Shown here piece after piece: positions 11,796 through 21,812 of a stretch of 23,186 nt of DNA. The DNA lies in IMG/VR virus record IMGVR_UViG_3300030202_002508, positions 1 through 23,186 of that record. One strand, 5' to 3'. Below the pieces are notes generated by a model. It saw only the letters and a list, made by a program, of their open reading frames with translations. It ran no database searches and was not told the origin of the DNA. The position numbers were made by a program, and so were the translations under genes. This DNA is from a virus. The first letter of the stretch is position 1. Every line of letters begins with the position of its first letter.

Positions 11796-14795
11796 ATGAA
11801 TAAATTTATACAAATATTAATCATATTTGTATTATTTATTTCTAGTGGTGTGTACGCACAAGATTCATGGATAAACATACAATTACAAACAGATAATTAT
11901 CCTGAAGAAACATCATGGGAAATATTTAATATTAGTGGTGATACAATAGCTGCTAATGATTCTACTTTAGCAGAACTTACATTATACGATACTATTATAG
12001 ACCTATCAGCAGAAGAATACATTATTCAATTAAATGATGAATATGGTGATGGTTTAGCTGCTTCTCAATGGGGTGGTACAGATGGTTGGTTTCTTATACA
12101 AAACGAATGTCAAGATACATTATTTTATGCAGAAGGTGACTTTGGCTTACAGTTAGTAGATACATTAACTATAGCTCCTTGTGCACCTCCTCTTTCAGGA
12201 TGTATAGATTCTTTAGCAATAAACTTTAATCCTGCTGCAACTGTGAATGATGACTCATGTGAGTATCCAGGTTGTAATGGGATTCTTACTTCTGGTGCAT
12301 ATGATATATGTATAGGAGGTGGAACACAAACACAAATAATATTTGAATGGACATTAGATGATTACAATCCTAATTGTGAAGTAGTTAATGTTATTATATC
12401 AAACGAGCAAGGAATAGGTCCTCTAAACTTTGCACCAGCACCAGTAAATAATTTTGGATTTATAGCAGGTAATGGACAGATGCCACCTAATTGGAGTGTA
12501 GAACACTACTTACAATTAGAGTTTGCAGATGGTTCTATGTCAGACACAATAACACATATACCTAATCCTTGTATTGCTGGTTGCACAGATCCTACACAAA
12601 TATCTTATAATCCTTGGGCAACATTTGATGATGGTACTTGTACTGGAACATCTTGTGATACTACTTCTCAGTATCAAATTACAATGGAAATTATGTTTGA
12701 TAACTGGCCTGGTGAAACAGGTTGGACTATGGTAACTAATTCAGGACCAGGTGTAGAAATGCCTGATGGATCATATAACTTTCAAGATATAGGACAAACA
12801 TATACATATACTTTTTGTGTAGATCAAAATGCACCGTGGGAATTAATTGTTTCAGATACTTATGGTGATGGTATGGCAGGATCTACTTCAGGTGGTAATA
12901 TGGATGGAACAATTGTAGTTTATGATTGTGCAGGAGATACTTTGTGGAATATGGATAATCCAGCGTTTGGTAATGTGTTATATTCAGGAGCACAAAATGC
13001 AAACCCTTGTCCTACTGTACCAACAATACCTGGTTGTATAGATGATGATTATGTTGAGTTTAATCCAGAAGCTAATGAAGATGACTATTCATGTGCTACA
13101 TTACACACATATGGTTGTACTAATCCTAATGCTTTTAACTATAATCCAGATGCAACTATGATGGATTTAGTTCCTGATTGTAATTATGAATTATGGATAG
13201 GTGATGCAGGTGGTGATGGCTGGGGTAATTCTTATTTAGGAATTATGCAAAATGGACTTATGCTTGGTACATACACAATGGGTCCAGGTTCTTATGAACA
13301 AACATTTGATCTTATATTAGATCCAGGTGTACCAGTTGAAGTATATTACTTTGAGGTAGGAGGGCCACAACAACCACCTCAAGAGATAGAGTTTCAAACT
13401 TGGCATAACTCATTTAAGTTAACTAATGCTAATGGTGTTGAGTTAATGTATGAAGGTTATAATCCATTTGCTGATAATGGTCAAGGTGCTTTGCAAAACT
13501 TTACGTCTCCTTTCTGGACAAAGTACATAGCTGTACCTTTTTGTGGCACATACTGTATACCAACAGTTGTTGGTTGTTTAGATCCAACAGCATATAATTA
13601 TAATGAAGAAGCTAACACTGACGACGGTTCTTGTGAAGCTATTGTAGAGGGTTGTACAAATGATTTAGCATTCAATTATAATCCAGATGCTAATGTAGAT
13701 GATGATTCTTGTGTAGCTCTTGTAGTTGGATGTACTGACTCTACTGCTTGGAATTATAATGCAGATGCAAATGAAGATGATGGTGCTTGTATATATTTAG
13801 GATGCACTGATTCTTCAGCATGTAACTATAACCCTGGTGCAAATGCAGACAGTGGAGGATGTACTTATGCTGATCAATATTATAACTGTAGTGATGTATG
13901 TATAAATGATACTGACTCAGATGGAATTTGTGATGAGCTTGAAATACTAGGATGCACTAGTGTAGCTGCTATTAACTATATGCCGGAAGCTACAGATGAT
14001 GATGGCAGTTGTGTAGGTATAATATATGGTTGTACAGACCCTACTGCTTTTAATTATGACGCTACAGCTAATACAGACAATGGTTCATGTGTATCTGTAA
14101 TATATGGTTGTATAGATGATACAGCATTTAATTATGATCCGGCTGCTAATACAGATAACGGAACTTGTATAGAGTTTGTATATGGTTGTACTGATACTAC
14201 AGCTCTTAATTTTGATCCGCTAGCAAATACATTAGATAATTCTTGTTGTTATCTTGGAGGATGTACAGATAGCACTGCACTAAACTATGATGAAGATGCA
14301 TGTTTTGATGATGGAAGTTGTATAGTTATAATAGAAGGGTGTGCTGATCCTAATGCATATAACTATGATCCGCTAGTTAACTTACCAGATAACTCTACTT
14401 GTCTCTATAATGCTGGTTGCTATGGTGGTCCAGGAGAACCCTATTGGTTAAATGATCCTTGTTATGCTTGGGTTATAGATATAGATAGTTACTGTTGTAC
14501 AAATTTATGGGATGAGACTTGTCAATCTATGTATAATTATTGTGAAGACGGTTGGCCTGTTAGCATAGACGAGTTATCAGGTAGTGATATAATTGTTTAT
14601 CCTAATCCTACAGCAAATACTTTTACTATAGAAACAAGATTAAATGTTGATGTAGAACTATATAATATAGTAGGTGAACTTATAAAAACAGATAATATAA
14701 AAAGAATAGATTTATCAGATTATCCTAATGGAATATATAATTTGATTATTACGTATGATAAAATAAGAATAACTAAAAAGATAATTAAACTATAA
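11796..14795 (+). CDS. Secreted Cys-repeat protein with T9SS type A sorting domain
   Basis: Signal peptide residues 1-21 (cleavage VYA-Q). Two domains related to each other (~25-115 and ~290-385) each carry a TxNYPxETxW-type start and a D-x-YGDG turn; a third (~465-560) carries GDAGGDGWGNS. Fourteen repeats of the form GCTDPTAFNY(D/N)..AN.DDGSC run from residue 135 to ~870, densest after ~593; their Asp-rich loops and the thrombospondin-3-like DTDSDGICDE (~705) suggest calcium binding. The last ~75 residues (VYPNPTANTF, LYNIVGELIKT, PNGIYNLII, ending KKIIKL) are a type A T9SS C-terminal domain. Host T9SS would move it across the outer membrane and probably attach it to the surface. The next gene (beta-barrel) overlaps by 1 nt. 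Finding such cargo on a phage is unusual; envelope alteration or receptor masking are possible roles. Confidence 0.9.
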   Translation: MNKFIQILIIFVLFISSGVYAQDSWINIQLQTDNYPEETSWEIFNISGDTIAANDSTLAELTLYDTIIDLSAEEYIIQLNDEYGDGLAASQWGGTDGWFLIQNECQDTLFYAEGDFGLQLVDTLTIAPCAPPLSGCIDSLAINFNPAATVNDDSCEYPGCNGILTSGAYDICIGGGTQTQIIFEWTLDDYNPNCEVVNVIISNEQGIGPLNFAPAPVNNFGFIAGNGQMPPNWSVEHYLQLEFADGSMSDTITHIPNPCIAGCTDPTQISYNPWATFDDGTCTGTSCDTTSQYQITMEIMFDNWPGETGWTMVTNSGPGVEMPDGSYNFQDIGQTYTYTFCVDQNAPWELIVSDTYGDGMAGSTSGGNMDGTIVVYDCAGDTLWNMDNPAFGNVLYSGAQNANPCPTVPTIPGCIDDDYVEFNPEANEDDYSCATLHTYGCTNPNAFNYNPDATMMDLVPDCNYELWIGDAGGDGWGNSYLGIMQNGLMLGTYTMGPGSYEQTFDLILDPGVPVEVYYFEVGGPQQPPQEIEFQTWHNSFKLTNANGVELMYEGYNPFADNGQGALQNFTSPFWTKYIAVPFCGTYCIPTVVGCLDPTAYNYNEEANTDDGSCEAIVEGCTNDLAFNYNPDANVDDDSCVALVVGCTDSTAWNYNADANEDDGACIYLGCTDSSACNYNPGANADSGGCTYADQYYNCSDVCINDTDSDGICDELEILGCTSVAAINYMPEATDDDGSCVGIIYGCTDPTAFNYDATANTDNGSCVSVIYGCIDDTAFNYDPAANTDNGTCIEFVYGCTDTTALNFDPLANTLDNSCCYLGGCTDSTALNYDEDACFDDGSCIVIIEGCADPNAYNYDPLVNLPDNSTCLYNAGCYGGPGEPYWLNDPCYAWVIDIDSYCCTNLWDETCQSMYNYCEDGWPVSIDELSGSDIIVYPNPTANTFTIETRLNVDVELYNIVGELIKTDNIKRIDLSDYPNGIYNLIITYDKIRITKKIIKL

Positions 14796-16127: not shown

Positions 16128-16457
16128 ATGATGAAAGGATTAAAAAACGTTATGGTCACTGATCAAAGAGCTCAGATGACATTTTGTGCAAGCTGTAAAA
16201 GCTGTCCTGCAATTGACATTTCCAAAGACTCAGACAAAGTTATTGTTGGAGGTGATGACGAAGGTTATACTGAGTTCACCAAAGATCAATTTGCATTGTT
16301 TGTAAAAACAGTTAAGGAGGGTATGTATGATAAGTACCTTCCTAAAGACTGTGTATGTGGAACAACTTCAGATCCTAATGGATACTGTGATGGATCTCAC
16401 TCTAATGTTTGTGAAGAACCATCTGATTTAAATGAAGATGTACCCTTTGGAGATTAA
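16128..16457 (+). CDS. CDGSH-motif putative iron-sulfur protein (109 aa)
   Basis: Residues 75-91 read CVCGTTSDPNGYCDGSH. The CDGSH iron-sulfur signature is C-x-C-x2-[ST]-x3-P-x-C-D-G-[SAT]-H, binding a redox-active [2Fe-2S] cluster by three Cys and one His. Here the spacing is one residue longer (CxC-x9-C rather than x8). A second Cys group, FCASCKSC (C20, C23, C26), lies near the N-terminus. Between them VIVGGDDEGYTEFTKDQF and FVKTVKEGMYD vaguely recall DUF397-type small proteins (weak). No export signal, so cytosolic or in the virion. A second ATG at codon 2 is an equal start candidate. Redox or Fe-S role is inferred from the motif. Confidence 0.65.
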   Translation: MMKGLKNVMVTDQRAQMTFCASCKSCPAIDISKDSDKVIVGGDDEGYTEFTKDQFALFVKTVKEGMYDKYLPKDCVCGTTSDPNGYCDGSHSNVCEEPSDLNEDVPFGD

Positions 16458-16475: not shown

Positions 16476-16787
16476 ATGCCAAACCCATTATCATTAGGAA
16501 AAAAGTTTACAAAACTAGCAGAAGCAGGTGCTTTTGCAGGTGCAGCTGATTTCTTTAAAAAGATATACCATAAATCTACAGATCAAAATAGATTAAAAAA
16601 TATAAATAAGACTCTTGAGAATGATGGAAACCTTACTGACAAACAAAAAAAATTTTTAAAAAACTTTCAAAATAGTAAGTTTAGAAAAAGCATGAATACT
16701 AGTGAACAAAATCCTAATACAGCTTATTTAAATAAGTTACAAATTGAAGAAATGGGAGGAGCTGTAGGCCCTAATGGAGTATTATAA
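16476..16787 (+). CDS. Basic small protein with GPNGVL C-terminal tag, member 1 (103 aa)
   Basis: Helical and Lys/Asn-rich, beginning MPNPLSLGKKFTKLAEAGAF, with a charged middle (LTDKQKKFLKNF) and ending MGGAVGPNGVL. It is the first of five consecutive genes that share only this ending. It has a small Ala/Gly-rich stretch (residues ~14-24) but no convincing signal peptide. The stop overlaps the next ATG (TAATGG). Possibly packaged with the virion or made for takeover or lysis; family unknown. Confidence 0.75.
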   Translation: MPNPLSLGKKFTKLAEAGAFAGAADFFKKIYHKSTDQNRLKNINKTLENDGNLTDKQKKFLKNFQNSKFRKSMNTSEQNPNTAYLNKLQIEEMGGAVGPNGVL

Positions 16788-17047
16788 TGGCAAAGAAGTG
16801 GATACAAGATGCAATAAAGAAACCGGGATCTCTAACAGCAGCAGCTAAGAGAGAGGGTAAAAGTATTACAGAATACTGTAAGACACCACCTTCTACTAAA
16901 GCAAAACAAAGGTGTAATTTAGCTAATACCTTGAGAAAAATAGCTAAGAAAAGAAAAAAGAAAGCTTGTGGCGGATCAGTTATGTTTTGTGGTGGAGAAT
17001 ATCATTCACCAGTTAAACAAGCTGTGGGCCCAAATAGAATTTTATAA
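16787..17047 (+). CDS. Basic small protein with GPNRIL C-terminal tag, member 2 (86 aa)
   Basis: Starts MAKKWIQDAIKKPGSLTAAA, a type of short basic sequence recurrent in phage small proteins. A Lys/Arg-rich helix (TLRKIAKKRKKKACGG) follows, then a Cys/Gly segment (CGGSVMFCGGEYHS) and the ending AVGPNRIL. Cys at ~32, ~43, 61 and 68 could bind metal. High charge suggests nucleic-acid binding. It is the most diverged copy of the tag (RIL in place of GVL). Confidence 0.75.
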   Translation: MAKKWIQDAIKKPGSLTAAAKREGKSITEYCKTPPSTKAKQRCNLANTLRKIAKKRKKKACGGSVMFCGGEYHSPVKQAVGPNRIL

Positions 17048-17049
17048 TT

Positions 17050-17346
17050 ATGCCAGGAATATTAACAGCTTTGAAAAACATCTTTACTAAAGGAAGTAAA
17101 GCAAGTAAAGTAAATAAATCAAAAGGATATCCTTTTAAAGGAAGCCTTGATGCAAATTTTCAAGACTATGCTAAAAAGCATTTATTAAATAAAAAAGGAT
17201 TTTTTGAAGGTGGTTATCAAGGAAATAAAACTGGCAGTAAATTTTCAAAAGAAGTTAAAAAAAATAATCCTAATGTTGAGCAATTAAAATTAAATCTTAA
17301 AACAGGAGGATCAATAGGAGCAATAGGACCAAACGGAGTATTATGA
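17050..17346 (+). CDS. Basic small protein with GPNGVL C-terminal tag, member 3 (98 aa)
   Basis: Starts MPGILTALKNIFTKGSKASK (amphipathic helix plus basic linker), with Lys/Asn-rich central sequence and a TGGSIGAIGPNGVL end. Body sequence is unrelated to the other tagged neighbours apart from Lys richness. Its TGA overlaps the ATG of member 4 (TTATGA), giving a -VL ending that also serves as the coupling junction. Confidence 0.75.
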   Translation: MPGILTALKNIFTKGSKASKVNKSKGYPFKGSLDANFQDYAKKHLLNKKGFFEGGYQGNKTGSKFSKEVKKNNPNVEQLKLNLKTGGSIGAIGPNGVL

Positions 17347-17576
17347 AAATATTTAATAAACTTAGAAAGAAAAGAATAAGCAATAAGATTAATAAGCTTA
17401 ATAAGGAGATTGAAAATCTTCAAGGTGAGGGTTATGGTGTTATTCAGCCTGCATGGGATGAAGGTGGTTCAGAAATTGTAGGTAAAACAAAAAAGATTTT
17501 TAAACTACAAGATAAATATAATAAGTTAAATAAGAAACATTACGGAGGAGCAGTTGGTCCTAATAATGTATTATAA
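17343..17576 (+). CDS. Basic helical small protein with GPNNVL C-terminal tag, member 4 (77 aa)
   Basis: Starts with a Lys/Arg/Asn-rich helix (MKIFNKLRKKRISNKINKLN) with coiled-coil spacing. A short central segment (EGYGVIQPAWDEGG) and a second basic helix follow, then HYGGAVGPNNVL. ATG overlaps the previous stop. Coiled-coil interaction or nucleic-acid binding is plausible; function unknown. Confidence 0.75.
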   Translation: MKIFNKLRKKRISNKINKLNKEIENLQGEGYGVIQPAWDEGGSEIVGKTKKIFKLQDKYNKLNKKHYGGAVGPNNVL

Positions 17577-17585
17577 ATTAAAATT

Positions 17586-17840
17586 ATGTCAAAAAGAAAA
17601 TTATTTGAAAAGTTACTTAATAAAGTATTTAAAAAACAAAGAGTTTTTGATCCGCAAAATAGAAACCGAAACTTTATGTCTACCGGATATACTGTAAATA
17701 CTCCTAATATTGATGTTAATGATATAATAATAAAAGGGGGTTCAGGTCTAACTGGTGCAGCTGCAGTTAAAGCTGCTCTAAATAAAAAAGAAGGTGATGC
17801 AAGTTTTGGGGGAGCAGTGGGACCAAATGGTGTATTATGA
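17586..17840 (+). CDS. Small protein with GPNGVL C-terminal tag, member 5 (84 aa)
   Basis: Basic N-terminus (MSKRKLFEKLLNKVFKKQRV), a beta-like middle (STGYTVNTPNIDVNDIIIKG), an Ala-rich patch (LTGAAAVKAALNKK) and the ending FGGAVGPNGVL. The TGA overlaps the ATG of the secreted protein at 17837. It closes the run of tagged genes. Confidence 0.75.
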   Translation: MSKRKLFEKLLNKVFKKQRVFDPQNRNRNFMSTGYTVNTPNIDVNDIIIKGGSGLTGAAAVKAALNKKEGDASFGGAVGPNGVL

Positions 17841-18348: not shown

Positions 18349-19125
18349 ATGCCCGCAAATATGAAAAAATCTGGAATGTCATATAAGAAAGGAGGTTCCA
18401 AAAAAATGTACGGAGGTACAATGAAAAAGAAAATGTCCTATGGTGGACCAAGAAAAAAACCTAAACCTGGTGAAAATATAAATCCTTTTATTTCATATAC
18501 TCCTGCTGATATAAATGCAATGAAACAAATATTACCAAGTGAAATCAATAAGAAAATGTATGGTGGATCCAAAAAGAAAATGATGAAAGGTGGATCAAAC
18601 GCCAAAATGCCAAAGTCAATGTATAAAAAAGGTGGTTCTAAACCAGATTTTTTAGATTTTGATGGGGATGGTAATAAAACTGAACCTATGACAAGTACAT
18701 ACATGTACGGTGGTTCTATGTATAAAAAGATGATGAAGTATGCAGGTGGCCCAGTAATGAATGAAAGAGGAATGAAAGTACCAGGTATGATGAAAGACGG
18801 TGGTGGACTAAAGAAAATGCCAGGTGGTGGTTTTATGAGAAGTATGGATCTGCCTAAAGCACAGAAAGGATTTTTTACAGCTATAAAGAATACAGCAGAA
18901 AATCTTTTTGGGAAAATAAAAAAAGCTAGTAATAAAAATGCAAATGTAATAGATGACATGGATTTATCTAAAATGGTTTTTAAAGGTACAGGTAGAGGAG
19001 GTAATAAAGTATTTAAAGTTGGAGCAGATGGTAAAGTGCAGGACCAAGCTTCAAATGCAATGCCTCTTTTTCAAAACATCCAGAGAATGCTTAAACAAGG
19101 TAGGTTTAAACCAAGAAAGAAATAA
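18349..19125 (+). CDS. Lys/Met-rich Gly-Gly repeat protein with LPKAQxGFF module
   Basis: The first ~160 residues are low-complexity with recurring KKMYGGS, KKGGS and KMMKGG units. They are interrupted by FLDFDGDGNKTEPM, which resembles an EF-hand or dockerin-type calcium loop (DxDGDGNxxE). Residue ~167 starts LPKAQKGFF, followed by ~60 residues related to the protein at 19518 (SKMVFKG...KVFKV versus SKLVYKA...RFKV). The stop directly abuts the holin ATG. Similar K/M/Y-GG repeats are known in uncharacterised marine phage proteins. Likely disordered, DNA- or envelope-binding; possibly a processed virion protein. Confidence 0.75.
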   Translation: MPANMKKSGMSYKKGGSKKMYGGTMKKKMSYGGPRKKPKPGENINPFISYTPADINAMKQILPSEINKKMYGGSKKKMMKGGSNAKMPKSMYKKGGSKPDFLDFDGDGNKTEPMTSTYMYGGSMYKKMMKYAGGPVMNERGMKVPGMMKDGGGLKKMPGGGFMRSMDLPKAQKGFFTAIKNTAENLFGKIKKASNKNANVIDDMDLSKMVFKGTGRGGNKVFKVGADGKVQDQASNAMPLFQNIQRMLKQGRFKPRKK

Positions 19126-19521
19126 ATGAGTATACTAAAAAAGATTTTTTCAGGTGCCGGAAGCAACCTAATAGAATCCGTGGGTGGTGTAATAGACAAT
19201 CTCGTAACTACAGATGAGGAAAAGCTTGATGCAAAAAGAAAGCTTAAAGAAATGATAATGAACCATGAGGTTCAAATGGAAAAGAATATAACTGACCGTT
19301 GGACGGCAGATATGAACTCTGATTCATGGCTTAGTAAAAATGTAAGACCAATGGTTCTTATATTTTTAATAGTGTGTACTATGATATTAATTTTTATTGA
19401 TGCTGGTGCAGTTAAATTTGAAGTAGAAGAAAAGTGGACAGATCTTCTACAATTAGTTTTAATTACAGTTATAGGTGCATACTTTGGTGGCCGTTCTGTA
19501 GAAAAATTTAAAAAGAAATGA
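19126..19521 (+). CDS. Holin-like membrane protein (3TM/GTA-holin type)
   Basis: A 131-aa protein with a charged N-terminal half (residues 1-70: DEEKLDAKRKLKEMIMNHEV), then MVLIFLIVCTMILIFIDAG (TM ~75-93) and LLQLVLITVIGAYFGGRSVE (TM ~105-121), ending with a basic tail FKKK. The SWLSKNVRPMVLIFL start of the TM part and the IGAYFGGRSVEKF end are typical of the three-TM holin family of phages and gene-transfer agents. It would permeabilise the inner membrane at lysis. No endolysin gene is visible beside it. Its ATG abuts the preceding stop and its TGA overlaps the next ATG. Confidence 0.85.
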   Translation: MSILKKIFSGAGSNLIESVGGVIDNLVTTDEEKLDAKRKLKEMIMNHEVQMEKNITDRWTADMNSDSWLSKNVRPMVLIFLIVCTMILIFIDAGAVKFEVEEKWTDLLQLVLITVIGAYFGGRSVEKFKKK

Positions 19522-20180
19522 AAAAGATAAAAAAACAATTACCTAAAGCACAAACTGGATTCTTCAAAATGTTTAATCCTAAAAATTGGAAAGCTGCAGT
19601 TAATGCTTTTAAAAAAAGTAATGCAGATCAGGTAGCTGCAAGCAAACTTGTATATAAAGCTGATGGTACTCTTGATGGTAGATTTAAAGTAAATTCAAGT
19701 GCTGGTAAATTTAATAAAAATACAGGTAAAGGTAAAGGTAAAGGTTCAAAAACAGAAAATGTAAAAAAGGAACCAGGATTTTTAAACAGAGCTTTTAATA
19801 AAAGATTCCAGATTAACACACCTTCTATAAAAAATCTTACTGTAGACCCTGTTAAGTTAGCATTAAGAAATAAAGGAAAAACAGCACTTTTAGGTGGTAA
19901 TGCGCTTTTAGCTTATTACTTGTTAAAAAGAGGAGATGGTATTAAAGATGTAGAATTAAAAAATCAATTTAATTTTGATACTAACCTTAACACTTTTCAA
20001 AAGGATAATACAAATGTAAACATGGACAGTACAAAAAATCCTAATTTTAAACCAAACATGAATTACTCAATTGAAAAGAAAGGTGGTCCTGTTAAAGCTA
20101 GAGGTGGTAAAACAGCTCCAGGTATGAAAAGTAAAGGTGGTGGTCTTAAAATGGATAGGAATGGTAAATTCTATAGATAA
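19518..20180 (+). CDS. Basic protein with LPKAQxGFF module and Gly-Gly tail
   Basis: Begins MKKIKKQLPKAQTGFFKMFN; after LPKAQ the next ~50 residues parallel the C-terminal module of the protein at 18349. A basic middle (NKNTGKGKGKGSKTENVKK) and a mostly hydrophobic stretch (TALLGGNALLAYYLLKRG, ~118-135, possible membrane helix) follow. The tail carries KGGPVKARGGK and ends RNGKFYR. ATG overlaps the holin stop; the stop overlaps the next ATG (TAATGG). Unrecognised; perhaps a lysis-linked or virion-processed protein. Confidence 0.75.
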   Translation: MKKIKKQLPKAQTGFFKMFNPKNWKAAVNAFKKSNADQVAASKLVYKADGTLDGRFKVNSSAGKFNKNTGKGKGKGSKTENVKKEPGFLNRAFNKRFQINTPSIKNLTVDPVKLALRNKGKTALLGGNALLAYYLLKRGDGIKDVELKNQFNFDTNLNTFQKDNTNVNMDSTKNPNFKPNMNYSIEKKGGPVKARGGKTAPGMKSKGGGLKMDRNGKFYR

Positions 20181-20942: not shown

Positions 20943-21812
20943 TTAAAATATATATCTAATTTTATTCCAAGGTATTACGTTATTATGTTCTTTTATAAAT
21001 GCATCAATAAATTGTTCTTTTAACTTATGTTTATATCTAACGTTTCTACCTCCATACTGTGATGTTTTACTCTCTTGTAGACTAGGTGTCCACAAATCTA
21101 TTTCTTGTTTTTCTTTATGATCTATTAAGTTTTTGTAATGTTTATTCTTGTTGTGTGTTAAAAATATACACTCAGCATAAACACCTTCTTCATATCTAAC
21201 ATTGTTATTTATCAAAGCAAATAACTCTTCATAGTCATCTAACCAGCCTTCATAAACTAATATGGGACTAAAGTTAATATGAACATCATATCCTGCTTCT
21301 TTAAACTTATCTATTGCTTGTACTCTTTCTAATATTGTTGATGTATTGGGTTCATGTAATGCACGTTTTTTTTCAGGCATCATACTAAACCGTATTCTAA
21401 TCTTCTTGTTTGGATTGTATTTAAGTAATTCTTTGTTAACATATTTAGTTGCAAAGCTTCCCATTATATCTTCATTATACTTGAAAAAATCAAATATAAA
21501 TTGCCAATCATGGTACTTACAATGAAGAGCAAAGTCTTCATTACAACTAATATCATATGTAATGTATTTTGGATGTGTTTGATTTGGTTTTTTTGTTTCT
21601 AGTTTTGCAAATATAGAATGGTTGTTTATCTCTGTTAGTATTTGGTTTGCATTTGTTGCTATTGATAATCCTTCAGGCTTGTGCCTTTTCATATAACAAT
21701 ATGAACAATCATATAAACATCCCCAACCAAAGCTTGGAGATATAAAGTCTGTAGATCTACCCGAAGGTCTAATCTTCAGACTTTTTCTAATATCTCTAGT
21801 GACTAATGTCAT
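20943..21812 (-). CDS. Radical SAM protein, spore photoproduct lyase-like
   Basis: Residues 32-39 CLYDCSYC give the C-x3-C-x2-C motif that binds the radical-generating [4Fe-4S] cluster with S-adenosylmethionine. Preceding FISPSFGWGC and following YMKRHKPEG, plus TYDISCNEDF, FATKYVN, IRIRFSMMP and DVHINFSPILVY, resemble the SplB-like family seen in Bacteroidota. SplB repairs the spore photoproduct (a UV thymine dimer) by radical chemistry. The 289-aa length is somewhat short of the Bacillus enzyme (~340). UV-damage repair is reasonable for a surface-water phage, but another radical reaction is possible. Starts inside the end of the DUF932 gene (ATGA overlap). Confidence 0.8.
   Translation of the reverse strand: MTLVTRDIRKSLKIRPSGRSTDFISPSFGWGCLYDCSYCYMKRHKPEGLSIATNANQILTEINNHSIFAKLETKKPNQTHPKYITYDISCNEDFALHCKYHDWQFIFDFFKYNEDIMGSFATKYVNKELLKYNPNKKIRIRFSMMPEKKRALHEPNTSTILERVQAIDKFKEAGYDVHINFSPILVYEGWLDDYEELFALINNNVRYEEGVYAECIFLTHNKNKHYKNLIDHKEKQEIDLWTPSLQESKTSQYGGRNVRYKHKLKEQFIDAFIKEHNNVIPWNKIRYIF

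Follow-up and report, generated by a model that had tools for sequence, protein, structure and literature searches.

Why should five neighboring genes with dissimilar bodies end in the same peptide? In the window, by which we mean the whole stretch of 23,186 nucleotides analyzed here, five consecutive small basic open reading frames (ORFs) at positions 16476-17840 on the plus strand share the C-terminal end [GG][AS][VI]GPNx[VI]L, with the individual ends GGAVGPNGVL, QAVGPNRIL, GAIGPNGVL, GGAVGPNNVL and GGAVGPNGVL in gene order. The ORFs and their common peptide were found exactly as given in a preliminary description of this DNA, except that the GG start proved not to be universal, and the core is better written as G(P/R)(N/Q)x(V/I/L/M)L-COOH. 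When searched as a DNA pattern, the C-terminal tag occurred five times in the 23-kb record and the reversed control not at all. We know of no description of this tag peptide, and the exact tag peptides were absent from the open-access text searched.

The five tagged genes

All five genes are located on the plus strand. The first (16476..16787) encodes a basic protein of 103 amino acids with the tail EMGGAVGPNGVL, of which the tag codons occupy approximately positions 16755-16784, and it has orthologs in loci L008 and L010. The second (16787..17047; 86 amino acids) has a body of the WIQ/KKPGAL kind, followed by the long linker CGGSVMFCGGEYHSPVKQ and then AVGPNRIL. Its first 30 residues showed weak matches to the small phage proteins phrog_20603 (E = 6.4e-06) and phrog_15706 (E = 0.00096), a likeness that concerns the start of the body, with the tail outside the match. 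The third (17050..17346; 98 amino acids) ends in SIGAIGPNGVL and has QLKLNLK just before the tail, where relatives have QLDLF. The body of the fourth (17343..17576; 77 amino acids) is predicted to consist of two helices, and its tail, YGGAVGPNNVL, is unstructured in the model. The fifth (17586..17840; 84 amino acids) has the tail FGGAVGPNGVL and a body that was present in this record only among the tagged proteins compared. AlphaFold models of two families, those of the second and fourth genes, gave helical bodies and an unstructured tail with a pLDDT below 50. None of the tagged proteins matched Pfam above the cut-off or had a relative among solved structures.

Proteins attach to the bacterial sliding clamp through pentapeptides of the QLDLF kind. 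A sequence resembling this pentapeptide (QLKLN/QLDLF) was observed just before the tag in the window (17050-17346) and in loci L023 (3751-4125) and L019 (7215-7526).

Distribution and form of the tag

With the strict pattern GG[ASTP][VI]GPNx[hydrophobic]L-stop, hits were obtained in 20 contigs from uncultured viruses. The same search of 257 Gb of contigs from cellular genomes gave none, and a cellular origin of the tag was rejected for that reason. With a shorter pattern, 57 occurrences were recovered from 20 related records, searched over their whole length, as compared to none with the reversed control. The hits were confined to one strand within each record and the tagged genes were clustered, with the longest array consisting of six tagged genes in a row (L006). 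Shuffled proteomes yielded 0.00 C-terminal matches, and internal matches were at shuffle level, with one in all genomes compared. The enrichment at C-termini in related phages and the clustering of tagged genes, both of which the preliminary description had proposed to examine, were thus recovered, the former strongly.

The tagged ORFs were collected by a C-terminal pattern, and the C-terminal position is therefore part of the search definition. An unbiased comparison of shared C-termini among all proteins of nine genomes identified the tag peptide in each of the five C-tagged genomes but in no other genome. Further groups with shared ends were lysine runs, evident paralogs, and scattered pairs or triplets. 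No group of proteins with a common C-terminus was found in the cultured relatives Lbo-JY46 (whole genome) and phi17:2 (50 kb). Generic k-mer motif mining gave an output that was swamped by low-complexity words.

The main form of the tag in the sequence logo is GG[AS][VI]GPNG[VI]L. The core residues are nearly invariant, with G at position -6 and L at position -1 in 58 of 58 tags and N at position -4 in 57 of 58. Together, the loci fetched contain 74 distinct ORFs with the ending G[PR][NQ]x[VILM]L. All 74 are basic with a net charge of +3 or more, a property that was outside the search criteria. Among 80 loci related through a neighboring protein of 352 amino acids, the 24 closest included 23 with tags, whereas the other 56 had none. 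The tag is confined to a single crAss-like clade.

Unrelated bodies and a modular tail

The 58 tagged proteins of a first set fell into 23 body families (BLAST, E<1e-3), the 74 proteins of the larger set into 22 families, and 65 of the latter, with the last 30 residues removed, into 23. The bodies are thus unrelated at this threshold, also in the absence of the tail, as had been claimed, and ordinary homology along the bodies, as in a full-length paralog family, was rejected on these counts. Neither full-length homology among the bodies nor a lack of C-terminal enrichment in related phages, the two findings that would have spoken against the preliminary description, was observed.

Within families, the tail varies independently of the body. 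The WIQ/KKPGAL family includes two tagless homologs, in L112 and L062, while its other members carry GGAVGPNGIL directly, via CGGSVMFCGGEYHSPV, via GGQVQGCGCPYGM, or after a longer insert. The neighborhoods of L112 and L113 are nearly identical, and the same slot is occupied by the tagless protein in L112 and by a tagged member of the WIQ/KKPGAL kind in L113. Another body, MAVRKSAKGAALRRWFKEDW, is followed by GGSVGPNGML in L015 and by GGSVQGCGCPYGMQIGPNNVL in G022. The linker GGQVQGCGCPYGMxMGPN was likewise found on bodies that elsewhere bear GGxVGPNGxL or CGGSV. The tag behaves as a module, with gain, loss and swapping of tails.

Selection on the peptide

In the window contig, the tags of different genes used the same codon 41 times, as compared to 33.6 expected from codon usage, and in two relatives the observed and expected numbers were 53 versus 57.0 and 23 versus 21.2. 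Since neighboring tags are no more alike in their codons than codon usage predicts, the peptide is concluded to be under selection at the protein level. In orthologs, the identity of the tag exceeded that of the body in eight of nine families, and synonymous change at conserved residues was equal to or higher in the tag than in the body in most of the nine, a comparison that is based on small families and non-independent pairs. Codon use and the ortholog comparison agree with the earlier claims that the tag codons differ at third positions and that the tag is kept by selection on protein. Together, the codon freedom and the synonymous change in the tag exclude recent copying of DNA as the source of the tags and make an element acting at the nucleotide level unlikely.

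Phage identity and genome setting

The window bears several signs of a phage genome: a holin-like gene, a gene for an adenosylcobalamin-dependent ribonucleotide reductase, and synteny with a relative of 115,139 bases (G018). The first and last proteins of G018 share the sequence IFVYKNAVEVTRETKDGLETFI, which suggests that it is a complete genome with repeated ends. It encodes a portal protein (phrog_6547, E = 1.3e-90), a major head protein (phrog_11589) and a terminase (phrog_6681). The portal is 23-34% identical to those of crAss-like phages of Bacteroides, Cellulophaga and others; in a tblastn search against Bacteroides crAss phages the values were 23-27% over 82%, and the best match in a cultured phage was to Leptolyngbya phage Lbo-JY46 (34%). 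Because of these portal matches we refer to the tagged phages as crAss-like, with a provisional place in the order Crassvirales that is based on portal similarity.

The tagged genes are located between conserved neighbors from the virion block and the holin. All 19 tagged genes in five large genomes are on the same strand as the portal gene, which is modest evidence, since in four of these genomes about 60% of all genes are on that strand, and members of an array are not independent. A second tagged site in G018 (104447-105250) adjoins small basic proteins of the DUF6321 type. In a record of 245,646 bases (IMGVR_UViG_3300030098_004828; G011), two diverged copies of the tagged region were observed, at around 110 kb and 230 kb; they are separated by about 120 kb, a pattern that would be expected if the assembly had merged two related genomes.

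Possible functions of the tag

A common partner, as proposed in the preliminary description, is a natural reading of a peptide shared by neighboring genes, and of the three kinds of partner named there, virion packaging would fit best. Nothing was found in support of a secretion signal, and a Pfam scan of nine large or structural proteins identified no domain of a PDZ-type or protease reader. With moderate confidence, and by analogy to the capsid targeting sequence (CTS) of phage T4, we suggest that the tag serves at the C-terminus as a signal for cargo loading, by which small basic proteins enter the virion. The tagged proteins would be made late, together with the structural genes, and the tag would serve as a docking peptide on an unstructured tail, to be bound by an inner capsid, portal or scaffold protein. 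In this way a changing set of small basic proteins could be loaded into the crAss-like virion as internal cargo, condensed with the DNA, ejected and delivered to the host, where the bodies may act.

Cargo loading is favored because the tagged proteins have the anatomy of the T4 internal proteins and because protein cargo is known from crassvirus particles. In T4, a terminal sequence of 10 residues suffices to load small basic internal proteins (IPI, IPII and IPIII), whose bodies vary between phages (PMC9026906). In both systems, several small basic proteins share about ten terminal residues while their bodies are unrelated and change fast, and the set of proteins differs between related phages. 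The T4 peptide is, however, N-terminal, is removed by gp21, and its loading function has been proven by fusions, whereas the tag is C-terminal, unrelated in sequence, located in a crAss-like phage and a putative loading signal. The (L/I)xE prohead-protease site of the T4 type is absent from the tag logo, the conserved positions of the main form include no acidic residue, and no cleavage site was evident in the tag. Having the opposite location, another sequence and no gp21 cleavage motif, the tag is not a T4 CTS.

As a rule, encapsulin cargo peptides are C-terminal, follow a flexible linker and occur on unrelated cargo proteins. They direct cargo into a shell made of an HK97-fold protein, which is the fold of phage capsids (PMC10960027, PMC8346489). 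The likeness to the tag lies in a short peptide on cargo proteins and an HK97-fold shell, although binding of the tag to a shell is hypothetical; encapsulins differ in being cellular compartments with one or a few cargos per shell and another peptide sequence. For the crassvirus phicrAss001, which belongs to a related phage order by portal similarity, the portions of the report considered here describe about 5.5 MDa of cargo protein in the capsid and tail, with gp45-gp50 as cargo proteins (PMC10172136). The cargos of that phage are large (60-277 kDa) and a shared terminal peptide is not mentioned in those portions (PMC10172136). The tag was absent from the C-terminal ends of the major capsid and portal proteins. 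The literature searched yielded nothing relevant on a C-terminal motif in small basic proteins of virions, and no virion proteomics for small basic relatives. To our knowledge, no sequence rule for small crassvirus cargo has been described.

The strongest rival to cargo loading, which we nevertheless consider rather unlikely, is that the tag docks the proteins to a common phage or host hub during infection (for instance a protease adaptor, polymerase, clamp or ribosome), with no relation to virions. The C-terminal tip of SSB and clamp-binding motifs provide models for such docking, and a short C-terminal tag with a hydrophobic last residue on a tail predicted to be disordered would suit it, as would the QLDLF just before the tag in one family. 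An injected effector could equally well carry QLDLF, however, bodies that are all small and basic are unlike the clientele of a general hub, and the tag is restricted to one phage clade. It is improbable that the proteins form one hypervariable paralogous family, in which duplicated genes have kept their ends while the middles diverged, so that the tag would be the end of a fold and not movable. Several bodies do start alike (MPGK..LKKLLKK, M(S/K)IFNK), and a lax BLAST cut-off of E = 0.1 lowers the number of families from 22 to 13. However, the tag is found on clearly distinct bodies, among them those of a known family with tagless members elsewhere as well as proteins of 47 residues and of 300-400 amino acids, and homologous bodies have different end linkers; common descent could explain the origin of some members but not the retention of the tag.

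Still less probable is a role of the small proteins, as cationic peptides, in lysis or membrane disruption, with the tag as part of that activity. This reading would account for the adjacent holin-like gene and for the amphipathic and basic appearance of many N-termini, but the holin is kept in untagged relatives, the tagged gene at G018 105107-105250 is located away from the holin, many bodies do not look membrane-active, and up to six such genes in a row would be redundant. Finally, we find it hardly conceivable that the peptide is incidental to a nucleotide element at the gene junctions, such as a site for translational coupling, recombination or packaging. The genes are tightly packed and several tags share nucleotides with the start codon that follows (gtattATGa), but the spacing of the junctions varies and the last genes of the arrays are still tagged; the freedom of third positions, which are as variable as codon usage allows, and the synonymous change in the tag largely refute such an element.

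If the tag is a loading signal, as suggested by the cargo reading, small genes of no known role in abundant uncultured phages would become a defined set of virion cargo, and ten residues would provide a handle for predicting cargo from sequence alone and a C-terminal label with a possible use for placing foreign proteins in crAss-like capsids.

An N-terminal peptide in other marine phages

A pattern scan for MAFKMKxP matched 100 viral stretches, and proteins and families were counted in 80 of these (loci L172-L251). In this set, MAFKMK[SGTR]P is located at the N-terminus of 65 distinct small, mostly basic proteins from about 29 body families. The peptide occurs in consecutive genes in L203 (1190-2316) and L228 (849-1281), and also in L116 (4205-4640); in L203, four such starts follow in a row on different bodies. 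Like the tag, it is short, terminal and shared by small, mostly basic proteins from many families, but it differs in its N-terminal location, its sequence and its occurrence in other, more distant phage lineages. The two peptides were not found together at any locus compared, and MAFKMKxP was absent from the C-tagged genomes tested. One MAFKMKxP protein (L212) is encoded by a small gene made of a domain with which large virion-block proteins of G018 and G021 begin, which may tie terminal peptides to virion proteins by a thin link.

Tentatively, lineage-specific terminal peptides (GPNxhL and MAFKMKxP) could constitute a general address code by which marine phages of Bacteroidota load rapidly exchanged small basic effectors into the virion, a possibility in which we place limited confidence. 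Under such a code, any gene gaining the peptide would become virion cargo. If packaging is the function of the tag and the N-terminal peptide is its equivalent, a general rule for these phages would follow.

Neighbors of the tagged array

A small conserved cysteine protein with a CDGSH-like motif (CVCGTTSDPNGYCDGSH) is encoded directly upstream of the tagged arrays (16128..16457, plus strand, in the window). The tagged relatives compared have homologs of it, whereas three large untagged genomes have none; one of these three (G024) is a weak comparator because its gene listing contains no recognizable crAss-like portal. The only Pfam match at E<0.1 was a weak one to AcrF2. As a speculation, this protein may be considered a candidate partner of the tag. 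The genes of G018 that are shared with tagged relatives and missing from the three untagged records include the small cysteine protein and several early genes, and no convincing clade-specific partner emerged from this comparison of gene content.

Downstream of the array, and on the same strand, are two untagged GG-rich small basic proteins of the same cluster, one with VPGM and LPKAQxG motifs (18349..19125) and one with LPKAQTG and GGKTAPGM motifs (19518..20180). Between them is the holin-like membrane protein that accompanies the arrays (19126..19521; phrog_3427, E = 2.6e-32). The recurrence of the LPKAQxG motif of the small cluster in giant proteins of the virion block is consistent with the cargo reading. 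In its general form, GG-x-[LI]PK[AFY]Q-x-[AG]G, this motif was observed repeatedly in such giant proteins and in the small basic proteins beside the tagged array, with sites in G004 (L062-L067; 43071-57919), in G018 (L056-L061; 30437-36309 and 75194-76938) and in the window (18349-20180). The VPGM motif (KGMKVPGMxKxGG) was observed in untagged small neighbors in the window (18349-19125 and 19518-20180) and in loci L095-L115, and is nearly restricted to loci of the tagged clade.

Two further genes in the window were recorded. The protein of 999 amino acids encoded at 11796-14795 has a C-terminal T9SS type A sorting domain (TIGR04183, 41.7 bits, cut-off 23), which points to a Bacteroidota host and to the use of host secretion. 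On the minus strand, positions 20943-21812 encode a radical SAM protein similar to spore photoproduct lyase (TIGR03886, E = 4.9e-84, below the cut-off of that model), which is possibly a UV-repair gene carried by the phage.
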